Assembly (NCBI RefSeq): GCF_021155765.1
Contig: NC_060115.1
Span: forward strand, 8,164,493-8,228,492
Direction: 5' to 3'
From: Diprion similis
Lineage: Eukaryota > Arthropoda > Insecta > Hymenoptera > Diprionidae
Length of the DNA: 64,000 bases
Shown here: piece by piece, positions 46,449-64,000 of the stretch
Layout of the letters: the number at the start of each line of letters is the position of its first letter
Numbering within the stretch: the first letter of the stretch is position 1
Position numbers and translations under genes: made by a program
The notes under the pieces: generated by a model
Seen by the model: the letters and a program-made list of their open reading frames with translations, nothing else
Database searches by the model: none
What the model was told of the DNA's origin: nothing

Positions 46449-49400
46449 ATTTTATGCCGCAAAATCAATCCGGAATTTTGCTTTGCGGACTTTCTTCGGC
46501 ATGTAACGAGCTACAAACGTGTATAATATATCTATACCGAAATGAAGAGCCGTGGCGGTTAACCAGTGTTAATGGGATCGTATTAAACGTGAGCTCTGCA
46601 AACAAAACACGAGATCGAATTACACTTGCGAGTAAAGAGATCTCCGTGACGTGGGTTCCGCCCCTCAGGGACTTGCTGGACCAAAACGAGGGCGGTTCGA
46701 GGACGTCGACCATCGCTTCCCGGCTTTCCGTTACATTTTATCCAACGTCTCTTCCTCCTTTTTTCATCACGAATTTAAATTCACGAATACATATCCAGTC
46801 CAAAAATGCCAAGGCAGACGAATTGGACGTTTGAAAATGGCACAAATGGAAGGAAAAAATGTTGCTGCAGAAATTTTCGCCTGTCGCCTGATGTCGTGAT
46901 ACGGATATATCTCCATGTGACGTGGGCTTGTGTCCTTGCGCCATTTGATACACGCACACATTTATTATGTTGGAAGTTTTTGCTAGCTGAGCTCAAGGTA
47001 CTTGACTGACTCGGGCGCTACCGTGGGAAAAGTCGAGATAAACCCACTTCAGAATCTAAGCTAATTTAGCTTGGAAGCAAATTGGATATGCATCCAGCAC
47101 TTTGTTTAAAATCAGAACCTTTCCCTGGGCACGGGAGCATATCAGTCGACGGGTTCATACCGCACGCGACAAGCAGCCTCATTTCCGGAATTTTTTATTT
47201 CGAGACGGAGCGTGTCGCGGTCGTTGATTAAAAGTCCTACTTTCATGAATAAAAATTCATTTGTATGTATATATATGCAGTTTTAAAATTAAGAAAAATA
47301 TTGTTTTTATCATATACTGTTTTCTACCGACGTGTGAAGCTCGGCGTATAGATACACTCGTCTCGGTTCATAGAGCAGGAATATATGACGTCTAAGCCCG
47401 TCGGCGCCTCGAGTGAAACCTAATACGTCTTAAATTTTATTAACCTAGATCAGGAATGATTTTTCAACAACGGCCCACTGTGTGGCTTGTGTGGAAAAGA
47501 CGAACCGCTCGAACAAAAAGGGTTAGTGTTTATTGTTCCGAGAGTGAAATACGACTTTCCCAAAGCTTCGAGGTATTCTTGTTGTTTTTTGCTTTCCTTC
47601 TTTACACCGTTTCCACAAATTCTCAAATCCCGCACGCGTTACCTCGTTACTTCTCCCGAACTCCTGCAACAACAAAATATCCAGAATTTATTCTCCTCGG
47701 AAATGTCAGTGTGTGCCTCTACGTAACAGGGGATCCGCAAGTTTTATTCTACGTACACCGTGAAAAAACAACCATCTTCCATACATGGGTAAAAATGATG
47801 ATAAAAATTTGTCCGAGTATGTGGAAACCATTTACTCCTGTTTAAAAAAAGCAGAAAACGGTGAATCTAATCATTAGGCGACTTGTTACGTAAAGCAATG
47901 AAAAGCTCCCAGGAAAAACGAAGCTGGACTTTTCCCAGCTCTAATTCTGTTCTCAAACGCAAGGTAGAAGGGTAATTTTTGGCACTTTACTCGGAAGCTG
48001 GTGCTGATGCAGGAGCATTTTGTAGAGTGGTAAACGGTGCAACGGCGTACGGATGTGTTGGGAGCAAATCGAGGGGGCCATGTGGCTCTCGGATGCGATA
48101 TCAAATCATATACCACGAAGAGCTAAGGCTGGATACGCGCAGGCGTGCAAACCCCGTGGTATATAAAAATAGTTTATTGCGTTACCAAGTATTAATGGAA
48201 CTCCGGATCCAGCGCGAGAGTCGAAAGTTACGGCTTGCGGCTCGTACCTACTCTGGATTCTACAAGTAAACAAGTTTCATTCTTTCACTCGAAGAACGAA
48301 ATGAAAAAGAAGATTATTGATGATTCTGGTTGCACTGGAAATTCGGATAAACTGCAATACCGCAGCTCGTTCGAATGATCGAATACACAGGCACAAAACC
48401 GGTCTTTTGACACCTTGAGATTCCAAGCGTTTTACTACCGTTTTTCTCTCAGCTCGGAAGATACTTCGAGTACCCGTCAACCTAGACGTGCTCAGAAACG
48501 CATAAACTGAATGACGAATCCGCAGTTGTAACACCCAATGACTATCCTCTTCCTCACCGAATTGCCTGCCACGAGGTGCTAATTGCGTTTAAGTGACAGT
48601 TGTGGGACAAGTTGTGTGAAAAATTTTCACTCAATTTATCGAGGTAGAATTTTAACCGGTTGAAGCTGCTGTCTTGTATAAATTGACATTGAAAATTATT
48701 ACCAGAAATTACAATTGTTGAGAAAAAAAAAAAAAATTACGTTCTCATTATTTCACATTCAATAAAAAATGTTGTAAATAATGATGATGACGTTTAAACT
48801 TGAATGAATTATACTTTCTTTCTGTTTCAACATTCCAATTGTCAGCGTTTTCAACTGTTCAGAAAAGTAGCGTAATGAAATTATTTTTTCAAGAACTCAA
48901 CCTGGCAAGATTATTCCCATTATAAAAATCACGAAGGAAGAAAAACGTTTACATTTAATCATTTCTTTTCTGAATGATTACAACATCTAAAGACTAAATA
49001 AGTAATCCTGTGAAGCTCGACTTGATCTTAATTTTGTTGAAAGCTTGTATGTTGCACCAAAATAATTCGTCACAAAGTGCTGAACTTTAATTATGTGACT
49101 ATATTCAATCGTGGGTGAAATAAGAAATCGAAATACGGTCCAAGTCCAGTTATCTATCCGTGTTTTACATCCATCCATACCTGCGGTTCGAGAACGAAAT
49201 GATAATCGCTTTGAACACACAGATCGTTAAACGCTAGTTAGAGTAATTGCCATTTTTTGTCTCGACTTCTCGTTCAACCCAGCATCGGCAACCTTTTGAA
49301 AAGTAGAGGAACGGGGAGGAGTATGAGGATGAAGGGGAGGATAAACGAACGACAGGAAGGAAGCATTTATGGCAGGTGCAGCGGTTGCCTGCGGGTGGCG

Positions 49401-52400
49401 TGGGTGGCGTGTGCTGGGCTTCTGTTCCTCGGTATATGAATGCACATACAGGATAGGTTTCAGGCTCGTTCACTTCTCGAGACACTAACGTAAACACCTT
49501 GTCTGGACACGTGTCCCCTCTATTTTATAAGCATCTTATATATACGCACGCGTATAGTGTATTTACACATCTCTCTATAGGTGGTGAGCACTATAGGTGC
49601 GTGTATTCATGTATATACACGTAACGCACATCACTAACACATTCACTATTCCTACTTAACAGCGTCGCGGGTTTCATTCATAAAATCATGAGAGCAAAAT
49701 TCCCGTTTCAATGAAACTAACCCGCAACAAGATGCCCTGAAATCTGGTTTAAGTACGTAAGAATAAATCGATTACGCCGAAATTTCATTCCAATGACTAC
49801 GATTATACTCGATCAATCGCGGAATTGAAAACTGCATAAATGCGAAAGTCATCTTCTTACACACGGAGTGATCGCGATTTATCATACGAAGCTCAGTGAT
49901 ATTTTCTCACCCTTTTAGGGTTGACGGTGGTAGATTTTTTTTTTTTGTTTTCTGTTTTTTGTTTTACGACTCTTTTTATGGAAAGTCAACAGGAAAGAGC
50001 TGCGATTTTACGAGCCCTCCACGACCCAATCTTTTCTGTTTCCGTTATCAGCAGAAATATAACATGTATGTTTGTAATAACGCGAGAAATTAGCTGCTAA
50101 ATAAAAATGAATCTACAAACAAGATTGAAAACAAGGAAGACCGCGATTCGGGATAGAAAGTCTAAGTACAGTTTGGTTAGATGAATGGCCTCGCGATGAA
50201 TCCGTGGCGAAGATTATGAATGAATTAGGAACATGGAACGACGTGTATCTACTCGACGGTTTATCGTCGGTCTGTTATACTTACTATGCAGGGGTTAAGG
50301 ACACAGGCTCTAGCTTTAGAGAGTGAAGAAAGTCACCGAGTAAAGAAAGTGTGTCGTCGTTTTGAGAAAATAAATAAATTTCCATAAAGCTTCTTCGGCG
50401 ATGGAGCTAGCCCAGATCACCGTGACAAAATTTTTGTTTACGTCCCCGCATGTGCAGAAGTGATGCCACTGCAGGAGCGGATAGAATATATTATACATAC
50501 ATTTTTTCTTCTTTTTATTGTTCAAAGAAAAATGAGCAAGAATCAAAATATCAGCTGTTCAAGCTAATTCCACCATGAAAATAATAATAATAATAATAAT
50601 AATAATCGACCGAGCGTCATCTTATCTGAGAAAATGGCCTCCGAATTTATCGAATTATATAACTTTTTCAAACATCTTAAAATTTCTATTTTATAAACAA
50701 TTGTTTACATTTTGTACCATTTATGACTATGTAAACCATAGACACACGTTATAGGATGAATATATGACTATAAAAATGGCGATAAACCGGTGCATCTAGT
50801 CTTCTAGCTATTGTACCAATTACAAGTCTCATTTACAAAACTTTCCGTCAAAATTTCAGCGAACGTGCGATAAATATTAGCTGACTGCAGGAAGAGAGAG
50901 TTTTCCGGATAAATAACGTGTACCGTCCAGATGCATTTAGGTGTGTACGTAAGTACGTAGGCACGGTGTTCTGGGTTGCGTCGCGGCGGCTTGCCGCGCA
51001 CTTCGATGAAGGCACCCTCTGCATCATCCCTTATACGTTATACCAAAGTTCCAGCAGGCCCCCTGGTTCACTTAGCTATCGCGATTATTTCATAATAGAT
51101 ATACCGGGCCCCCAGGGGACTCGAGATATAGTCGGCTGTTATCAAGCTTCCTCCCCCCCCCCCCCATCCCCATCGCCGTCCTCACGATGCCGAGACACCA
51201 GGACACCGCCACATTCCTCACCCTGGACCAGATCAGACACCGGGACCAGAACACCGGGCCCGTATCGAAACAGACCGCGACATTTTCACCCTGAGTAAAG
51301 CATTCAGTATAACGGGCAATTCTAGTGCTGCATGCCACTAAAAATAATACGTCACTCAAAATGCCCGACTTTTGTTTTCCGTTATTATTACTAGCGGTTT
51401 TCATGGGTGTAATTATTTCTATGGACACACGGTAGTTGAGATTTTATTTTCGCAGTCAAATCTCGACTGTAATCATACATCAGGAATTGTCGTAGAGTAG
51501 CGAATGGAATTGAGTGTTGATTCAACGGCTTAACGATTAATGAAATGCCTCGTTTCTCTCTCTCTCTATCTCTCTTTTGGAGAAGAGCCGGAGACACGCG
51601 AGACCACCAGCCTCCTAATCGGCGTTCTAATAATGTGAATTTAACCGCGCTTATAAGCCGCACCTTCGAGTCGACGGCGTGCAGGCGCAAAGATCAAAGA
51701 GTGAAAAAATTAGTCGGTGTAAGTGTGCTGTGCTCCTCGAAACGTCTTTATTGACGGAGCTAGGCGGCTTTCGTCTTTGATAAGAGATGAAGCGCGTCGC
51801 CTCCCACACCCCAGTTTCCACGTCTGCCTACTTTCTGCTCGAGAATATATATATATATCTAGCTTCTTCTCTACCTTTCTCCCTCGTCTGCGGGTCCCTC
51901 CACATAATCCATACCCACACAGGCACGAGAAGAGAAAAAGAGAGTGAGATAGAGAGATAGAGAGAAAGTGAGAGAGCTTTTCTTCGGGGTGTAGGTACCT
52001 GCCATCATGCGACCCCATATATGTACAGCCACTTCACTTTCGCTCGTATCTGCCGAAATGTCAAAGGAGAGAATGAAAGCTCCGAGAATCCCGGCTTTCA
52101 AGATCCTCTAGAACTCAAAACTTCCCACCGAATTTCCTCGTCTGCGGTAGAGAGATTTGGTAGATTTTTACTACCCCATTAAAATCGACTTAATTTCATC
52201 GAAAAAAATCTGCATTTAGGAAGGAAATTCGATTGCGAAATTTAAGGGATGGGTAATTTCTTCCTGGAGAACAAGGTGGACGGTTTTTTGTTCGCACTTA
52301 GAGTAGGCTTGGAGCTACACCTGCGAGTTTTAGACGCCATGAGCCAGCCTGCAAGAAACGGCGAGTGGAATTCGGATGGATGAGGCGCCAGTGGTGAGTT

Positions 52401-54456
52401 TTTATTTGTTACACCATGGGAAAAGGTCGTTAAAGAATTTTTCACGCCGACATTCTCGAGGACTTTGCGGTCCAATTATCTCTCCGCCTACTTCAACTTA
52501 CTTTACTTCTATTCCTACTTTATTTTCCAAGTTATCTGAAATTCTGTAATCTTCTTCCTTAAGCATATGAATTTACATTGTTACCAATGTACCGACTGTA
52601 CTCTTCTGCGGTTCTTAAGGACTCTTGATCCCAAAGCCTCACTTGTCACACAAAGTGACGCAAGTTGCGGAAAATGCAGAGGGACAATAGCCGAATCCAT
52701 AAATTGCAGAGGATGGCATCTGGCCTGGGCAACGTCCGATTCTAAATACCAGACGTTTCTACTTTCCTGGCTGATTACACGCCGGGCATGCATCACCGTG
52801 AATCTTATCGCTAATTGCAGTCTTTACATTCATCACTCCTGCACGTACGTTAATTGTAACCCTCTGACATTTTATGATGCCGTCGCATAATCTGATTTAT
52901 CATTTCGTCCCCTTATAAAACAGGCGGTGAAGTGGAAGGCCTCTTCTTGCGGTGGTTAGCTTTTTTCTGATTCTTCTTATATTCCACCCTGCGCAGTCTC
53001 GTCAAAACAGGTAAAAGGAAGTGAGGGGTCAACTTTGCTGCAAAAGGAGAGAAAGAAAAAAAAAAACGGACGCGCTTTTGGTTCTTGAAAGAAATTTATT
53101 TATGCGAACAGGTTCAAGACGGGGTATTTAATTCCCCGGGGGGATGAAACCGAGTTGTACCGCCTAGACGAGACACGCCGTTTTGTTTGTTGTTTGGCCT
53201 TTTTTTTCTCCCCGACTAATTTTATTCACGCTACCGTTTGCCGCGAGGCTTTGTCGGTCTCGAACTCTCACTTTTTACACGGGTTTTAACCCTCGGAGGA
53301 AACACGTGACTACTTACGGGACGCTAGATTCCCGTCCTCTTTTGGACCCTCGGTAATTCGAACAAATTTGTATAAATCCGCTCAAGCTTCATCCACTTTC
53401 AAGGATACCCGACTTAGCCTGTGCTTATAATGCTTCATGATCGTCATAATTTACTTTTTACGCGGAGACTCGATTTTTTTACGATCAATTAATTGATCGT
53501 GACAAAGGAAAAATATATTTATACCGTGCTTTGAAAGTATTATCTGTCACTTAATATCGCGCTCTTGAAAATGAAATTAGCGATGTAATTAATCAATGTT
53601 CAAATTTTGTGAAAATTAGAATTATGTGTGTGTGTATAATCAGCAATTGTTGAACCGAATGAATAACAAATTTTCCCAAAACTACTGAGCTTTGCGAAGT
53701 TTCAAAATTTCGTGGAACCCGCAGCTTCATTTATTTATTATATAATAAATCGGTTTAAGTTTGTTACTGTACTTTTTCGTAATGGATCTGATAACGTATC
53801 CGCCTCATAACGAATTACGTATGGTATGTACGTACGTGTGAGAGCGAGAGTAACGAGAGTTAGGATTAAGTACTTAAGTATATTTCACGAAAAGAGAAGA
53901 AAACCAAAGACAGAACGAACTTAAGCTAAACCGAGATTTTGCTGAATCGTTTCGTTTAAAAGTAAAATAGAGAAGATAAAGAATTACGAGAATCGAGTGT
54001 ATTAATTGAAGTGAATTGTTTATTATTAATTTTGTTGGCCATCAGTCCCCGGGTGACATTTTCTATCCTGTTTTCCTGAAACGTATGTTAATAAATGTTG
54101 AAAATTGTTGCCGGGATACTCAAGCTAAATCTTAATTCAACTTTCGTCTGTATATACTATCTCCCGATTGAAATTCCTTTAACAGGTTGAAAAGTGCATA
54201 ATATAAATGGTCAAAAAATATTTCTGTTTCAGTATTACAATAATAAATTATCGATGGCTCATTTCTGAAAACAATATGGCGAAGGCAAGCTCGTAAAGTA
54301 AAATACCTCTTGCATTACTCGGCTGTAAGCCGTCGTCGGGGCGCACAACAACTCTATACGTATATATGCTACATGCGATCCAATTTACTAATTGAATCGT
54401 TCAGCCGATACGTCGACGCCTGGGCGCCGGGACGCCGTTGCGTGGGAGTCGAAATC

Positions 54457-54472
54457 CCGCCTCCGCAGGCGG
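54457..54472. other. GC-rich hairpin upstream of Hand
   Basis: A perfect inverted repeat CCGCCT-CCGC-AGGCGG lies in a short GC-rich patch (about 54,410-54,545) within otherwise AT-rich sequence, about 450 bases before the first Hand codon. It may belong to the promoter or 5'UTR. It is not a tRNA: no matching acceptor stem is found. Confidence 0.35.
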
Positions 54473-54906
54473 AGCTTGTAAGGTATCCACCCCCGCCGCA
54501 AGCTCTTAGGGTCGGTAAAATCCCGGGCTGAGTCTGAGCAACGGAGAAGTTAATCCCCGATCCTAACGCCAGTATCATTCCAACCGTTTTCTCAGTCACG
54601 CCGCGCACGCGTCCTTCTAGTATAGAAAAATTCACCGAGATTAATAACGAATAATTCCGTTACGTCATCCTTCGTTCGACACGTGTGTGACGATACTTGT
54701 CCTCCACTTTTGTTGGTTTCCGTTTCTTATATTTTTATTTTTTTTTTCTTCTACAACTGTGCTTTCAAGGGCCGTAAGTTCCGCTGTAGAAATTTTCTAC
54801 GCATTCGGTAACCCGGGGAGGTTACAACCCCCGCAGAATTCGAACAGGATCATCTTCGGTCTGTCTGTTCTTTGAGCCACAGTGACGCGTGACTCGAAGA
54901 GTAAAA

Positions 54907-57900
54907 ATGTTGGGCGGCTACGAGGCTCAAGCAGAATACTACCCTCAATGGCATCAGCCTTACAATTACATGACCCAGCTACCCTACGGTGAGTTTTTCA
55001 CATTTCTGAATAAAAAATATATCACGTTTTTTGTTTTATTTTTAATCGAATCCCAAGTTCAGACAAAACCCCGTTAATTTCTCGTCTTTCGTCCGACTTT
55101 CAGGACCCGTCGGAGTTCCGGACCCGGTCGAAGTTCATTCGACGTATTGGCCGGCGGCGGACTCTGGAATATCCGGGGGCAGTTCGGGGGCCGGAAGTCC
55201 GGCGGCTTCGACGCCGCCGTTGATCGAAGAGATCGGGGTTCAGGAATCTTCGCACTATTCTCCCTCGTCGCATTCCTCTCACTACTCGACGACGATGACG
55301 ACGACGACGACGAACCACCACCACCATCACAATCACAATCACCACCATCATCATCATCAACAGTATAACGCCCATCAGATGACCAATGCCCCTGGGCACC
55401 AGTCTTACCCCGGATTGATGTACCAGGCTTGTCAGACTGACTCTGCGAATCGCCAGAGCGAATTCCTCGGTGGCTCGTTGCAGCCCTCCGACCACCTTCA
55501 ACGCCTCCACGACGTCAGGGAAGGGATGGTCGTCAGGCCGAAACGGAGGAATACCGCGAATAAAAAGGAGAGACGACGCACCCAGAGTATTAACAACGCC
55601 TTTGCCGATCTCAGGGACTGTATACCGAACGTACCGACCGACACGAAACTTTCCAAGATAAAAACTCTCAGGCTTGCAGCTTCCTACATTGGCTATTTAA
55701 TGGCGGTTCTCGACAGCGACGAGGGAGAGGAACCCCAAAGTTTTAAGGCAGAAATTTTGTCGAGTAGCAGGCGTAACAAGTCTCAACAAAACGCGGTGAG
55801 TCAATTTTATCCAACGTTGTTGTTACGGGGTTGGAAAATTTATCAATTGGGGGATGAAAAACAAGGGAGACACGATGCACGCTAAATTCACACGGAGAAA
55901 GGATTTTCTGCCAAATTTTATTCCGCCAGCTTTTGGGCTCGACGTATATCGCCACGATTTTAGGCACTGAACGTTAAAAGGATCAGAAAGGGATCTTTCC
56001 GCAGTTTTTTTTTTTTCGTTTTATTTTCTTTTTTAACAGCGTTAATGGGTTACCGCGTTGACAAGTAGAACATAAATTGTAGTCCTTGTATAAGATAAAG
56101 CGAGTAAAGTGGTTGACACGGATATGTATAACGTGAAAACAAAAATCCTAGGGAATATCCGAGATCTTAATCTGCCATTACTTATACGCAAATTAATAAT
56201 ATTGTTAAAAGAGATGTGGTGAAGTGATGATTTACGTGCAGGTGTGCGAAGAAAGCGCGTCACTCTTGTACTTTACAAAGTTTCGAAAAAGCTTAAGAGG
56301 CATAGTTTGAGGTCAGGGTTTGCTTACAAGTAAAGAGGAGATAAAATTTACGTTGTGGTATCGTTTCAAGACGATTCATTATTAAAGCTTGTCCCAGCTC
56401 GGCAGATTAGTATCAAAAAATGAAAACCACAAGAATATTGAGGAGCCGAGGATTGACGTCGGTGATCTTGTAATTCTAAATGCTCAAGCGTCAAAATGTT
56501 GAAACGTACTAAGAATCTACGTTTCTTTTTTTTTTACCCCTTCTTCTCTCAATCAAACCAGTTAAAAACTCATCGCCTCGACTCACTTGCTGCTCGGTAG
56601 CACGTCGGAATTTTTTCTCAGCTTAACACCGTACGGGATGAGAGTTCGGTAATGAATAAGTGACGAGACTTAGGTTTGAACGTAATTTCATAAACTTCGT
56701 TGGATAAAAAGGCAGGTCCTAGCTCTATGCAAGATCGTGATCTGAAAGCGGATTTAGAAAAAAATCCTAGGTTCACAACAAATGGCAAATGTCCGCAGTG
56801 TGAGGGTCTTTTTTTCGAACAGTAGTTCATACCGCAAAGCTTTCGTCACGCTACGTTGATCTTGTTTTTTTGTTCAAAACGAGTGTAAAAAAATGGCGCA
56901 AGTTTCCAGATAATTACGTTAAAATTCTTAAAAAACAAACCGGCGATCGCGATCGACTAAGATAAATACGTTGAAGGTGAAATATAACATAAATCACGTT
57001 TACGCTTAACGGTGTGATGTTTGATTGAAAAAAATAAAAAAAATAATACATGATCTGCGGATGATTATAGTCGGTAAAATTATATATTACAATGGCGATT
57101 ATATTTATTTATTCAGTCTAAACGCGTAGAACATCCACCCACCGCATTCCGACGGACGCGTGTTTTAATAAAAAAATTTTATCTTCATCTCAGGCATCGC
57201 GCTTGTCGCAGTAGACTGCGTTGATTGATTTGAGATGAAAATTGTCCCGAGATTCGACGAAAGGTTGGTTAGCACTTTGACCAACCAAATCTCGAGCTCG
57301 AGTAGTGTGACGCTCTTGCTTTTTTCACTGTTTATAACAACTTAATAAAGCTGCTAGCGTTCGCAGTACACTGGCCGAAAGTAAACACGAACCGCAGCCT
57401 GACTCAAGCGGTTTCATCCACTCTGCATTCGTCGATGAGAGCCACGGAAAACCTCGGTTACATATTCATAATTACAAACTGTGATTCGCTCGTCTCGTCG
57501 CTGCTTCGTCAGTCACACGTCTCACAAACGACGTTATCAGGATTTAAATTTCGGGAAATTGGTTCTCGGCTACTAATCGGAGTCGAAAATTTCAGCGTAA
57601 AGTTCAAGTCTAAAGTGTGTAAAAAAAAAAAAATTCTGAATGAATGAATAAATTTAAGAGAATATTCGATTTGACACGAAAGTATGAACGATTGTACGAA
57701 AATCTATACTATAAAAACTATATCTTACCGGTACTCAAGGCAATTTGTCTACTCGACCGCGATAAATCGACGATAAACGACCTTCTCTTTGTTTTTTATT
57801 TAATTTTTTTATTTGAATTATCCAACGTGAAGAGATGTGCAATTCAGTTTTCTAGCCAGTGAGAAAGAAAGGATGAAGATAATTTCACGGATTATATATC

Positions 57901-58440
57901 TGCAGCATCCTATTTCGGAAGTCGCGTCATCGCAAATTACGATCGCCTTGTGCGGTCGAGTGATTTGTCGGTAGAAGTAGGTATAACGCATCAGAAATTT
58001 GGACATCTTTTCTGGTAGCAGGGTTAGTTTCGCGACATGGGAGGTCTTCGGTGGCGATTAGCTTCCGTGTTTTTCACCTGACGGTCAGACCGCTTCCGTA
58101 ATAATTTTTCATCCTAGCTCGACAGATTAAGCCGGTTGAAGATTTTCGCGGTTTCTCTTTGTAATTTCCAACGATTTCTTCACCCACATTATAGGCACAC
58201 GGATTGTGGCGTGTCGAAGTCTTTTCGGCATGAAGATAATTAAAGTTCGATGTCGAACCGTGGATTGTTTCCGATTCGTAAGTGCTCTGAACTTTATGTA
58301 TTTTTGCAACTGTGTTACAGATCGAGACTTCCGGTCAGAGCACTTCCTTGGCACAAGAAGAAGGCCCTAAGGGTAAGGGTAGAACTGGATGGCCACAGCA
58401 TATGTGGGCCTTGGAACTGAAGCAAGAACCTCAGGCCTGA
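54907..58440 (+). CDS. Hand: Hand bHLH transcription factor, copy 1 (complete)
   Basis: Three coding exons, 54,907-54,988, 55,104-55,795 and 58,321-58,440, with introns of 115 bp (phase 1) and 2,525 bp (phase 0), give 297 residues. The bHLH lies at about 175-230: basic region [20 protein letters not shown], then [21 protein letters not shown] and [15 protein letters not shown]. The last exon carries the Hand-specific C-terminus [17 protein letters not shown], which identifies Hand rather than Twist or other class A factors. The N-terminal half holds a Tyr/Gln-rich start, [13 protein letters not shown], a Thr run and a His-rich stretch (about 99-112). Hand acts as a nuclear dimer binding E-boxes; in Drosophila it serves heart, circular visceral muscle and blood progenitors. 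A second Hand gene follows 3 kb downstream on the same strand. AATAAA at 58,802 and 58,808 fits the 3' end. Confidence 0.96.
55796..58320 (+). other. Second intron of Hand copy 1
   Basis: GTGAGT at 55,796 and TGTGTTACAG ending at 58,320 join two phase-0 exons. The 2.5-kb interior is AT-rich with no recognisable exon. In Drosophila a cardiac and haematopoietic enhancer of Hand lies in an intron, so this is a candidate location, but I found no decisive motif cluster. Confidence 0.8.
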
Positions 58441-58813
58441 CTGCAGGATGGCGCAGAGAAAAAGTCGAGGAGTTGATTGATCGGGAAGAAGAGAATTTTT
58501 ACGAACGTAACGAATTGTGTAAAACAAGAATCCTGAAAAGAAAAAAAAAAGAACGTAACCGTACCTGTAAATAATACCGATTGTATATTACTGCTCTCGT
58601 GTACATGTATGTATGTAAATAAGAAGTTAATTGGATCGATTTTTTTCATTCCGTGAATTTTTTTTTGTTTTTGTTTTTCTTCTCTGAATTATATTTTTAC
58701 CTACCAAAGAGTATTACTGTATAATATGATTCAACTATGTATAGAGTTAGGGGAGTATGATTTTCGAGAGATACATATTTGTAAAAATTTTGTATAAAAT
58801 GAATAAAAATAAA
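58441..58813 (+). other. 3'UTR of Hand copy 1
   Basis: AT-rich sequence following the TGA at 58,438-58,440 and ending at two overlapping-style signals, AATAAA at 58,802-58,807 and 58,808-58,813. Confidence 0.55.
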
Positions 58814-61397
58814 AGAAGAACAAAAATAAAATGAATACAAAGAAAAATACACATATTCAGTGAACACTAATATGAACGTGAGTAAGTCATTTAAAATAAT
58901 ATCTTTATCGACCATTTTCTTTCCCATAATAGTTTGTTATAAACCTTGCAGAAGAATCGTCGAAGAAACGTGAAACAGTTAGACTGGATTAATAGAAGTC
59001 TAAAAATGATTAACGCGATGTAAGTACAGTAAGCATGGTATAAAAGATCGACGTGCTTTCGAGGCTTGAATGTCACGGCAATAAATGGCTAATCACAGTA
59101 AGCTAGTTGTGTTTGAAAATTATATACGAATAAAAAGACGAAGTCTAGGCGTGAAATTAGAAAAATTTAATATTGCACTAAAGAGCAAGTTATTCATCGA
59201 CAAAGGAAAGGAACTGAAAGTATAGGTCAGAGGATGAGCGGGAGCATGTAGGCCAGGTTTTTCAGGACGCCTATTTCGTGTCCTGCTGTGGCGCATGGCC
59301 TGGCGCCAGAATTCTGACGTAACCCAAAACCAGCGGACGCAAAGGGACAATTGAGGGTATCAATTGCAGAAGGACGCCTGTCGAACTGTTGTTTCCTTTT
59401 AGACGTTGTCCAAGTGTGCGTACGCATTTTTTCTTCCCAAACTATAATCTATGAAACGTAAGTGTGTGTGCAGCTAGCTTTGAATTTTCAACAAATAGAA
59501 GAAGCTAAAAACCCCCAAAAAAAAAAAAAACACAGACATGCGAGGTATAAAGAAAAAGTCTATATCATTTGGAGATGGAATGTTGCGGATTAACTGCCGT
59601 TTAATCGCTCGACAACTCGATCTATTTAAATAAAATCACTCGTCATTTTAATGAATCCCGAACTGTTCGGAGAAGATCGCGTCTCGGTATACCGTCGACT
59701 GAAATGACCAATGTAGATGTAACGCAACGGCGCGACGGTGCCACTGGTTAAAAGAAAAAAGAACGTAAAAAGTTTTGGGGGCGACAAGAATTCGACCCTG
59801 CCAACATACAAAACTCGCACGATCAGAGGAGTGAGTAAATATTTGACGTAGAGCTTTCAGAGCGTCGTCGATAGCGGTCCTTACCAATCTAAACATTTCA
59901 AATCTCATCGCGTGTCTTGCCATATACATACGATAGAGTATAGAGCGTGTCGCAGAGTCGTTATGTATGTACTATACACGTAGGTATGTATGTATACTCG
60001 ACAAAGTGTACGACGGCATATAAACGATCCTCTATGAGACACAAAGTAATTAGAGAACCGCGTGAGCGCATTTGTCAGCCTCCAATTATAACGCCCATGC
60101 CAGAGTATAATGTCACGAATTTGTTTACGAATGATTTGATTCGGTCGCGACTTTCGGCTCATCTTCACCGTGCGAATGTTTAACCCTGGCACAAACAAGT
60201 GACCGAACTACCTGCATGCCTATATCCTCGATATTCTCTAAATCTAAATGGTTTCATCGAGGAACCCGATCGGCTTCGGATCGTCGCGTCGAGAAGGAGG
60301 CCGGAAAGTTTACATCGGCAATTACGAAGCTGACACTCCCGCCCGCAGGAGGGCAGCAGCCCGGAAAGAGTCCCTATTTGTCAACGACGAAGATGCACGC
60401 TCTTCCTTTGCCTCATCTCTCTCTTTCTCTCTTTCTCTCCTCTAGGTGTTCCGGGGCTGACCGGAACGGTCAGGGAACCACCCCTTGAGTATCGGACTCT
60501 TGACCAAGCAGAGGCTTCTCAAGACATTTGACACTAATGCGACAACTCCGCGTCGCCGAGCGGGATAAGTTATGTGACTTTTGGTGCCAACGAGCCGCAA
60601 GCTCGACTGCGAAACGTGCGCTTTTCGCCCCTCCGTTTGTCGGAAGCGTATGACGGTATGACGGTATGACGGTCGAGGTATCTTCATCATACACATGCAG
60701 GTGGTAGTATGCAGGGGTGGTATACAGTCGGAAGAGAGTTATGACCGATTATGGACCGCGTGACTGAAGACAAAGAGAGACTGTCAGGGTGAGAGAGAGA
60801 GAGAGAGAGAGAGATGGAATCGGGTGGCGGGAGAAAGAGGATACAGGGGAGAAGGTTAATCCTATAAATTGATGTTCGGAGAGGGGGCGAAAGCGGAGCG
60901 AGAGATATGGAGGAATAAAGGAAAAGGCGGAGCTTCCGAAGCGCACGCGGACGAGCCGGAGTTGAGGATGAGGATGAGGCCGCGTATAGCACCTCGCGGT
61001 GTGGGTGTCACAGGAAAGTCATCGCAGATGGTTGCGGCCGGAGGATATTCATTTGTCATTCCGGGCATCGGGCGTATGTGCACAGACGGTATAGTTGGAT
61101 CGTTAAAGTATCGTTAATTTTCCGTCCCCGTCGCTCGTCGAGCGGGCAAGTCGCCAAAGGCGCGAGTAGTGAGTGCACCGGTTAAAAGTGTCAAAATATG
61201 CGAATCCATTAGCCGGAGAAGACCAGCCGAAGATAAATTGGACTTTGCAGAAACGGATAAACTACCGCGTCAAGAGCCGTCGGTCAACTTTGACTGTCAA
61301 ATGTCAAATTTGCGGTGACTTTACAGTGTGGACTAGAGTTGGACCCGCTCGGTGCCGCCGGGTAATTGATCGATCTTGAACAAAGGCGTGTTCCATA
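58814..61397. other. Spacer between the two Hand genes
   Basis: About 2.6 kb. It holds (TATGACGG)3 at 60,649-60,672, a (GA)12 tract at 60,791-60,814 and a TATAAA at about 60,863 that could belong to the promoter of copy 2, about 535 bases before its ATG. A plus-strand open frame at 60,248-60,445 matches no family. This region must contain the promoter of copy 2 and possibly enhancers shared by both genes. Confidence 0.45.
60791..60814. repeat. (GA)12 microsatellite
   Basis: Twelve uninterrupted GA units near the putative promoter of Hand copy 2. GA tracts can bind GAGA factor in insects, so a regulatory role is possible but unproven. Confidence 0.9.
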
Positions 61398-63609
61398 ATG
61401 GCTGCCATGCTGGACGGATACGTTAATCAGCTTGATAATTATTACGCCCATAATCAGTGTTATCAACCGAACGCTTATCCCGCACCTGCACATCGCCAAG
61501 GTTAGTAAAACGCGTTGAATTGGATCGCGAACGTTTAGGTTTTTCTACAATCCCGGATTCTTTTATATCCGAAAACCAGATTTCACCTTTAACGAAAACT
61601 CGGGGATGATTTGGTTTCTCCTAAACTTGCATTTCGTTTCGGAAGAGATGACGGTAAAATACTTGAATCTGGGGGTTGCGGGTCTTCAGGGTAATTCGAA
61701 GAAAGTAGATCGCAATTTTCAGTGACTTACAGGGTAAAAGGAAGTAATTTGGTGCCAGGTTTTGTCAAAATTTCCAAAAGCAACCGTTAGACAATGATAT
61801 CAAATTATTCGTAGCAGCATCGGGCAAACTATTTGGAGAGATTTTTACCGTAATATGTGCGTAAAATCGTGTACACAACGTCATAACGATCGATTAACGA
61901 AGTCATCTGAAGATTGCGTTACACAGAAATTTCACGAGTGTGAATCTACTAACTTTATTAATTTTTTCGTAGTAAAGTACCGAGTCGATGCAAAGTATTT
62001 AGGTATATTATGACGAGCGTAAACATAAAAACGTCGCGTCAAATGCTGTTCTCAAAATTTTGTACAACGCGTGCCAAGAGCTGTATAAACTTTATTCGAA
62101 CGAACACTTTACTTTTGATACTCGAATTGCGAATTATAGAAAGAAGAAGGATGTCTATACAAAATTTTCATTTACGTAAAAGAAAATGTTTTGAACGCCC
62201 AAAACGTTAAGTAACTCATACTTCACACTTGAGATCGTTGAACGTGGACTCACGTCAGAACGAGATTTAACATTCAAAAGTATCGAAAAGTCCACACGGA
62301 GTTAAAAATTTTCGTTTACATTGAGGCGAAGCAGAAAAGTGTAATACATAAAGCCAAAAAAAAAGAAACTTTTAATAGAAATAAGAAACAGAGTGCTTAC
62401 AACTCGTTCTCCTTAGCCATACACCAGTAATTGAAGTAAGTACAGAATGAAGAAAAAATCGGTTCTCCGGGTATTGCGGGCACGCGTCACGAGCAACTCG
62501 AGGGTGTTAAGCAGCCGGAATACCTACCGTAGAATATCTAGCGGCGCGGTGAGCTTTGTAAACTCTCGGAGTGACGGAGGCCAGAACACCTATCGTTTCC
62601 TCGCTACACAGGGTAGTGGTATAAACACGCTAGATTTCCAGCACCTTCGTAGCGTTATTCTTAGGCCAGAAGTAGATACGGTTCCTCCTGTAAGTCGAGG
62701 CCTAACTAAACCTACCTACTCTAACCAATCTTCATCAGCTCGTTCATCCCGCATACATATACGAGTAGGTTACATACTTACTTTGCATGATAGCGCCGTT
62801 CGGCTCGCACATCACACGATCATCATCCCAGTCGGAGTTTAACCTCGGTAAGAGTTGCACGACACGACGCGTTGTAAATCGGCCATTCGTTGAAGCGCCA
62901 TTGAAATAGCGTAAAGATGCGAGGTCCGAGGGTAGCTTCTTCATCCCCTTTCGATTGGGCCCGATCCTTCCGATCCTTCGACTCGTAGAAAGACACTCTG
63001 GGCTGATCGGTTGCAGGTGGAAACGCCGGTGTCCCAGCCATGGACTGTCACGCTGTTCCCGATAGTTCTTACTGGAGTCCGATGGATGCGACGGGAATAT
63101 CCGGGGGCAGTTCCGGCTCCGGAAGTCCAGGCACTTCGAACACTCCGCCGTGCCTGGAGGAGCTCGGCATAGCCGATCCTCCCGCGGCGTTTCACATCCA
63201 CACTTACCACAACCAGAACCATGTCATATCCTCGCACAATCATTACGGGGCTGTCGGGTACCACGACCAGGTCGTCGACGGTCAAATTCGGGAGGACTAC
63301 GCGCCCTGCTCCACATCGGCGGGCCAGGGTTCGTCCTTCAACCTTGAGACCCCGGTGAGACCGGTGAAGAGGAGGAACACTGCAAACAAAAAGGAGAGAC
63401 GACGCACGCAGAGTATAAACAACGCTTTCGCTGACCTCAGAGATTGCATTCCCAACGTCCCAGCCGACACCAAACTCTCCAAAATCAAAACTCTGAGGCT
63501 CGCTTGCTCCTACATCGGATACCTCACCGCCGTCCTGGACAGCGACGAACCTCCGGCTACCTTCAGGGCGGAACTCGTACCCGGCAGCAGACGCTCCAAG
63601 CAATCCGGG
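61398..63609 (+). CDS. Hand: Hand bHLH transcription factor, copy 2 (3' end outside window)
   Basis: Two coding exons are visible, 61,398-61,500 and 63,017-63,609, separated by a 1.5-kb phase-1 intron; 232 residues are encoded so far. Exon 2 ends at GTGAGT in phase 0, as in copy 1, so an exon with the GRTGWPQ-type C-terminus is expected beyond 64,000; it is not present in 63,610-64,000. The bHLH (about 153-208) matches copy 1 except for three changes over some 60 residues: T to A in NVPxDTK, A to C in RLAxSY and M to T in YLxAVL. Shared outside the bHLH are MLxGY at the N-terminus, [10 protein letters not shown] and LDSDE. It lacks the Thr/His-rich run of copy 1. The first codon is taken at 61,398; a second in-frame ATG at 61,407 aligns better with the start of copy 1. 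Confidence 0.94.
61501..63016 (+). other. First intron of Hand copy 2
   Basis: GTTAGT at 61,501 and GGTTGCAG ending at 63,016 border a phase-1 intron matching the 115-bp intron of copy 1 in position but 13 times longer. An open frame at 62,447-62,842 (131 codons, Ser/Arg-rich) shows no family resemblance and is probably chance. Confidence 0.8.
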
Positions 63610-64000
63610 GTGAGTTGAACTGTTAACCATGAAATTGGACTTATTGTTAGTAGGAGTGACATTGCGGGACGAAATGATGCGAGGTAAGTGGAACCAGACT
63701 GACACAGCTAAAGTGCAGCTCACTCCGTGCGCTGACTATAGACTGCACAATTTATTCACTGCGTAGATCTTTCGATGGTGAATCGGAATTTTTCGTCGTG
63801 TTACTATTTAGACAAATAATGAATCTGAATAAAGCACAACTTGTTCTTTGAACCATTTCAAAACTACATAGGTACTCTCTGCAGTGCACCAATTACGATA
63901 GATAAACACTGAAACCGGATTCGGATTGGATCGAAATCATTGACCTAAATTTGAATTCGATGTTTAATTTCCGTATCACGTGACTCAAGCTTATACAGCT
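63610..64000 (+). other. Start of the second intron of Hand copy 2
   Basis: AT-rich sequence after the GTGAGT donor at 63,610. No acceptor leading to a GRTGWPQ-type exon is present before the window ends. Confidence 0.7.

Follow-up and report, generated by a model that had tools for sequence, protein, structure and literature searches.

Two adjacent Hand genes in an insect genome: an old tandem duplication and its possible division of roles

Layout and gene models of the Hand pair

The window, the whole 64,000-nucleotide stretch of DNA analysed here, corresponds to G000:C11:8164493-8228492 of a 269-Mb, 60-contig assembly. Sequence was also read 55 kb beyond the window end, and the overlapping parts were identical base for base. 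Two genes of the Hand family of bHLH proteins were modelled on the + strand, each with three exons: Hand-A at 54907-58440, encoding 297 residues, and Hand-B from 61398 to beyond the window end, encoding 274 residues (Table 1). The Hand-A stop codon, which ends at 58440, and the Hand-B ATG at 61398 are separated by 2,957 bp, bearing out the initial annotation of two Hand genes in the same orientation about 3 kb apart. All four introns are of the GT..AG type (115 and 2,525 bp in Hand-A, 1,516 and 2,998 bp in Hand-B), their phases are 1 and then 0 in both models, as originally reported, and neither reading frame contains an internal stop.

The third exon of Hand-B, for which a search past position 64,000 had been proposed, was present in the sequence beyond the window and was recovered also by the whole-genome search. 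It matches exon 3 of Hand-A, and the C-terminal block GRTGWPQH[M/V]WALELKQE is common to both. Its acceptor could be any of five in-frame AG sites; the one chosen follows GTCTCGTTGCAG. Use of the alternative acceptors at 66623, 66638 or 66650 would give a shorter exon start with the conserved block retained and use of 66584 a longer exon, the boundary being that of a predicted model only.

Several other features of the window and its flanks were recorded. On the minus strand, exon 2 of each gene is overlapped by long open frames, at 55074-55696 (146 and 198 codons) and 62744-63735 (159 and 264 codons), most likely a by-product of GC-rich coding sequence. A 304-bp tandem satellite (77.4 copies, 96% matches) fills positions 1-23535. 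On contigs C10 and C5, at least 40 scored places (388 candidates) match a 120-base part of its unit exactly, and repeats resembling it lie near the ultraspiracle gene on contig C4 (G000:C4:17884700-17904699), beginning about 10 kb from the ligand-domain exon; the satellite is present on several chromosomes. Four of the ten open frames scanned in the flanks matched Pfam families.

Table 1. Features of the Hand locus and its neighbours, numbered on the window scale
Feature	Position	Strand	Description
Hand-A exon 1	54907..54988	+	ATG start, GTGAGT donor, open frame, ends in phase 1
Hand-A exon 2	55104..55795	+	His/Thr-rich N-terminal half and bHLH; ends in phase 0; Pfam HLH E 7.6e-20
Hand-A exon 3	58321..58440	+	C-terminal GRTGWPQH[M/V]WALELKQE block, TGA stop
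Hand-A poly(A) signals, predicted	58802..58830	+	Three pattern positions, AATAAA/ATTAAA-type
Intergenic region, 2,957 bp	58441..61397	+	3' end of Hand-A and putative 5' regulatory region of Hand-B
Hand-B exon 1	61398..61500	+	ATG start, GTTAGT donor, ends in phase 1
Hand-B exon 2	63017..63609	+	Shorter N-terminal half and bHLH; ends in phase 0; Pfam HLH E 2.8e-20
Hand-B intron 2, first part	63610..64000	+	Continues beyond the window to exon 3
Hand-B exon 3	66608-66736 (G000:C11:8231100-8231228)	+	TAG stop; about 2.6 kb beyond the window
Adenylate-kinase-family gene	near 29 kb upstream		Pfam match
LARP1 (LARP1_HEAT), ABHD18, adaptin	downstream of the Hand pair		Pfam matches

Family membership, copy number and genome context

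The two copies scored 70.9 and 72.3 bits against the Pfam HLH model, for which the cut-off is 20.7. Their closest solved chains were Twist1 and TAL1, and no chain named HAND was among the nine structure matches listed per copy. Exon 3 of each gene encodes the block GRTGWPQxVWALELK, which we take to be a Hand signature, vertebrate proteins presumably carrying GRTGWPQ.VWALEL. In a whole-genome search with the exon 3 end as query, two places were found at E <= 0.001, and there was no third. Both copies also possess the helix 1 Thr and Ser (RRRTxS) that we assume to be the phosphorylation sites of vertebrate HAND. With provisional Drosophila letters, Hand-A and Hand-B matched the bHLH of Drosophila Hand at 49/61 and 48/61 positions, respectively; with human letters that are likewise provisional, each copy matched HAND2 at 48/61 and HAND1 at 44/61.

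A FastTree analysis of 61 columns, with the provisional human and fly letters, placed the five Hand rows together (0.78). Within this group Hand-A paired with Drosophila Hand (0.73), leaving Hand-B outside (0.20), with weak support. Taken literally, this topology would mean that the duplication predates the split of flies and the source insect. We set the pairing aside because of that weak support and because one shared Thr may underlie the grouping. IQ-TREE on 61 columns left 10 of 11 inner branches open and placed Hand-B beside the row L003 on a long branch (80/57). Assignment to another bHLH family was rejected on the HLH score, the C-terminal block and the helix 1 Thr/Ser, the bHLH tree itself being weak. 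Outside insects, an exon 2 alignment gave 421 pattern matches in viral contigs and 589 in prokaryote genome contigs, none of them a relative, and had no match among phage records.

Searching the genome with the Hand-B bHLH identified 18 places, of which the top two scored 124.4 and 115.9 bits and the other 16 at most 54.3 bits. Two Hand loci were thus found in the 269-Mb genome; each copy was recovered once, and both genes lie within a single 16.1-Mb contig.

Three further features describe the genome in which the pair resides. An Orco gene is present, and to our knowledge Orco is insect-specific. Its loop exon scored 127.6 bits to chain 6c70, 68.5 to 9vqs and 45.6 to 8z9a, and a neighbouring exon 183.0, 142.5 and 103.6 bits to the same three chains, which we take to be the Orco of the fig wasp Apocrypta bakeri, that of Drosophila and, under the label ApisOrco, that of an aphid. 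Chain 8v00, labelled Orco, tied with 6c70 for both exons and its printed letters were the same; no other hymenopteran chain was recognised among the 7 chains listed. The ligand domain of ultraspiracle is RXR-like, scoring 361.9 bits to 4ozt, 350.5 to 1xiu and 339.4 to 2nxx (presumably louse, mollusc and Tribolium) and about 330-335 bits to vertebrate RXRs, as against 214.7 and 206.9 bits to 1hg4 and 1r1k, which we take to be the Drosophila and Heliothis Ultraspiracles. These scores argue against a receptor of the fly or moth type but name no order by themselves. TTAGG arrays are abundant: a 40-base pattern had 9,880 overlapping matches in forward and 6,483 in reverse orientation, and its reversed control had 0; the first of the matches listed lies at base 5 of contig C1. 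PMC8977481 attributes TTAGG within the Hymenoptera to bees, ants and basal sawflies, not to ichneumonoids, hunting wasps or gall wasps, and gives chalcids longer telomere motifs. A sawfly, bee or ant is accordingly the most probable source of this insect genome, Orco being the main ground for placing it in the Hymenoptera.

Divergence, selection and age

Hand-A and Hand-B are identical at 142 of 253 aligned residues, and the identity is unevenly distributed. The bHLH agrees at 58 of 61 residues (differences T/A, A/C and M/T), which confirms the count of three differing positions made earlier. The DNA-contacting basic region is identical, and two of the changes, A to C and M to T from Hand-A to Hand-B, lie in helix 2. 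On the N-terminal side of the bHLH 54 of 132 aligned residues are identical, and on the C-terminal side 30 of 60. A His-rich N-terminal stretch occurs in both copies (about 55313-55363 and 63190-63270), dense in Hand-A, whose N-terminal half has a long His/Thr-rich stretch, and shorter and looser in Hand-B; vertebrate HAND1 carries a His-rich N-terminal stretch too.

At synonymous sites the NG86 pS was 0.80 for all 253 aligned codons together and 0.86 for the bHLH; the corresponding dN values were 0.39 and 0.04. The same codon was used in both copies at 57 of 138 conserved degenerate codons. Four-fold sites differed in 39 of 57 cases, giving an F81 distance of 1.96 with a bootstrap 2.5% bound of 1.06 and an infinite 97.5% bound. 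The synonymous sites of the pair are therefore near saturation and set only a minimum age, near one substitution per four-fold site. At typical insect rates, uncalibrated here, the duplication would lie tens to hundreds of millions of years back. Six codons (GISGGS) formed the longest stretch identical between the copies, a length matched in 305 of 5000 simulations; by this test of identical-codon runs there was no convincing sign of gene conversion between the copies.

Non-coding DNA on the A side (48001-59000) was compared with that on the B side (59001-75000), together with four control stretches. Two weak matches were obtained, with E values of 0.001 and 0.075; each was in opposite orientation and fell in the A+T-rich segment 58552-58851 at the 3' end of Hand-A. 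The controls gave 5, 8, 9 and 1 matches with best E values of 0.010, 0.004, 2e-4 and 0.18, so that the best A-B match was beaten by one of the four controls and was better than three. We rejected these matches as homology because they were at control level, though three of the four controls were weaker, and a faint common non-coding sequence could still exist between the two sides.

Near-saturated synonymous sites, diverged N-termini and control-level non-coding similarity together indicate an old duplication under purifying selection, not a haplotype copy, and in this the initial annotation, which had noted widely different silent sites and N-terminal halves, was upheld. That the pair is an assembly artefact or a haplotype copy has a negligible probability given this divergence, the placement of both genes in one contig and the single occurrence of each in the genome. 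It is also very improbable that Hand-B is not a working gene, whether silent or decaying. Its three exons, splice sites and frame are intact despite near-saturated synonymous sites, and an unselected gene of such age would be expected to be broken; on these grounds we rejected Hand-B as a pseudogene. From these data we conclude that the locus holds a real, complete and old tandem pair and that one insect has a new paralogue within the known Hand family.

Retention of both copies and comparison with known systems

The reading that we favour, with a probability of roughly one half, is that of an old tandem Hand pair whose proteins are nearly equivalent at DNA and whose expression has been divided. 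The ancestral event was an old tandem duplication of the whole three-exon gene in the same orientation, both copies since being maintained by purifying selection. As judged from the bHLH family, E-proteins would be the dimer partners of both proteins and E-box-type sites their common target, because the basic region is identical, the helices are nearly so and the helix 1 Thr/Ser is conserved. The two proteins would thus be largely interchangeable at DNA and would differ in the partner contacts of their N-terminal halves. Both copies would be transcribed and would act on the same binding sites. Their retention would most likely reflect a regulatory split of the domain in which the ancestral insect Hand was expressed, namely the heart tube, the pericardial cells and the lymph gland; visceral muscle also belongs to the insect Hand domain. 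Expression of Hand in cardial and pericardial cells is documented in PMC4902288. The diverged N-terminal halves and non-coding DNA would fit a divergence in both regulation and partners.

Ten stretches, including three controls, were scanned for 9 candidate regulatory motifs. Tinman-type sites were not enriched in any scanned stretch, z being at most 0.8. GATAAG was seen 5 times in Hand-B intron 2 against 1.3 expected, a z of 3.3 that is uncorrected for the number of tests, where a control reached 2.0. High z values for Mef2-type (2 sites) and Hox-type (1 site) motifs were obtained in Hand-A intron 1, which at 115 bp is too short to weigh. An excess of GAGA upstream of Hand-B was set aside as a run of GA repeats, a larger excess occurring in one control stretch. 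The scan gives divided enhancers no clear support, nor does it exclude regulatory divergence.

Two other explanations for the retention were weighed. Both copies may have been kept for dosage or redundancy under a common regulatory landscape, without divided roles. This is rather unlikely: the genes are adjacent, lie on the same strand and have near-identical bHLH regions, and one enhancer could serve both, but N-terminal halves identical at only 54 of 132 residues and non-coding DNA no more alike than the controls probably represent more divergence than pure redundancy would leave over a long time. We regard as improbable a neofunctionalisation in which one copy gained a function outside the ancestral Hand domain, for example through helix 2 or the N-terminus of Hand-B. 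The two helix 2 substitutions and the lack in Hand-B of the long His/Thr-rich stretch would be compatible with it, whereas an identical basic region and a conserved C-terminal block speak against it, and a derived copy can be assigned only with orthologues.

The pair would be of wider use. Hand is a core regulator of heart development, single-copy in the insect surveys consulted and present as two genes in higher vertebrates (PMC5126786, PMC3527142; PMC4529270). An independent, old and still adjacent insect pair would offer a natural test of dividing a cardiac transcription factor. It could reveal which ancestral roles uncouple among heart muscle, pericardial cells, the blood-forming lymph gland and visceral muscle. 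A single Hand probe or antibody may also miss part of the Hand activity in some insects.

According to PMC5126786 all examined insects have only one Hand, with a count of 1 in 13 of 13 table columns including Nasonia, Harpegnathos and Apis. The Hand count is 1 in 6 of 6 columns in PMC3527142, and the accessible text of PMC3127390 names AmHand and no second Hand. That Drosophila has a single hand gene and higher vertebrates two is stated in PMC4529270, in line with the earlier remark on Drosophila. The novelty here is that one insect has two Hand copies where these surveys give one per species. No report of an insect or arthropod Hand pair was found in the open-access literature, in which "hand" is poorly searchable, so one may exist, and the automatic annotation of public databases may already list both genes.

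The source insect and Drosophila or other insects share the same Hand bHLH family, as the provisional Drosophila identities above suggest, and differ in gene number. With vertebrates the source insect shares the possession of two Hand paralogues per genome and, presumably, a similar C-terminal block. Unlike HAND1 and HAND2, the insect copies are tandem neighbours, and they are nearer to each other (58/61) than to the human genes (44-48/61, provisional letters). Neither copy is nearer to a vertebrate paralogue than to its sister, again by the provisional human letters. This closeness and the tandem adjacency argue for a duplication separate from that of vertebrates, as had been supposed. A HAND1/HAND2-like system in Hymenoptera is possible, although we put it forward only tentatively: an ancient tandem pair, perhaps from the base of the order or earlier, would have shared out heart-muscle, pericardial/haematopoietic and visceral roles between its members, parallel to the vertebrate case, one copy having been lost in bees, ants and Nasonia.

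Another parallel is provided by PaTwi1 and PaTwi2 of the ant Harpegnathos saltator. These are Twist genes, not Hand genes, and the table that lists them gives one Hand for the species (PMC3527142). Like the Hand pair they represent a duplicated mesodermal bHLH gene in a hymenopteran, and their successive accessions, EFN77900 and EFN77901, suggest that they too are neighbours (PMC3527142).
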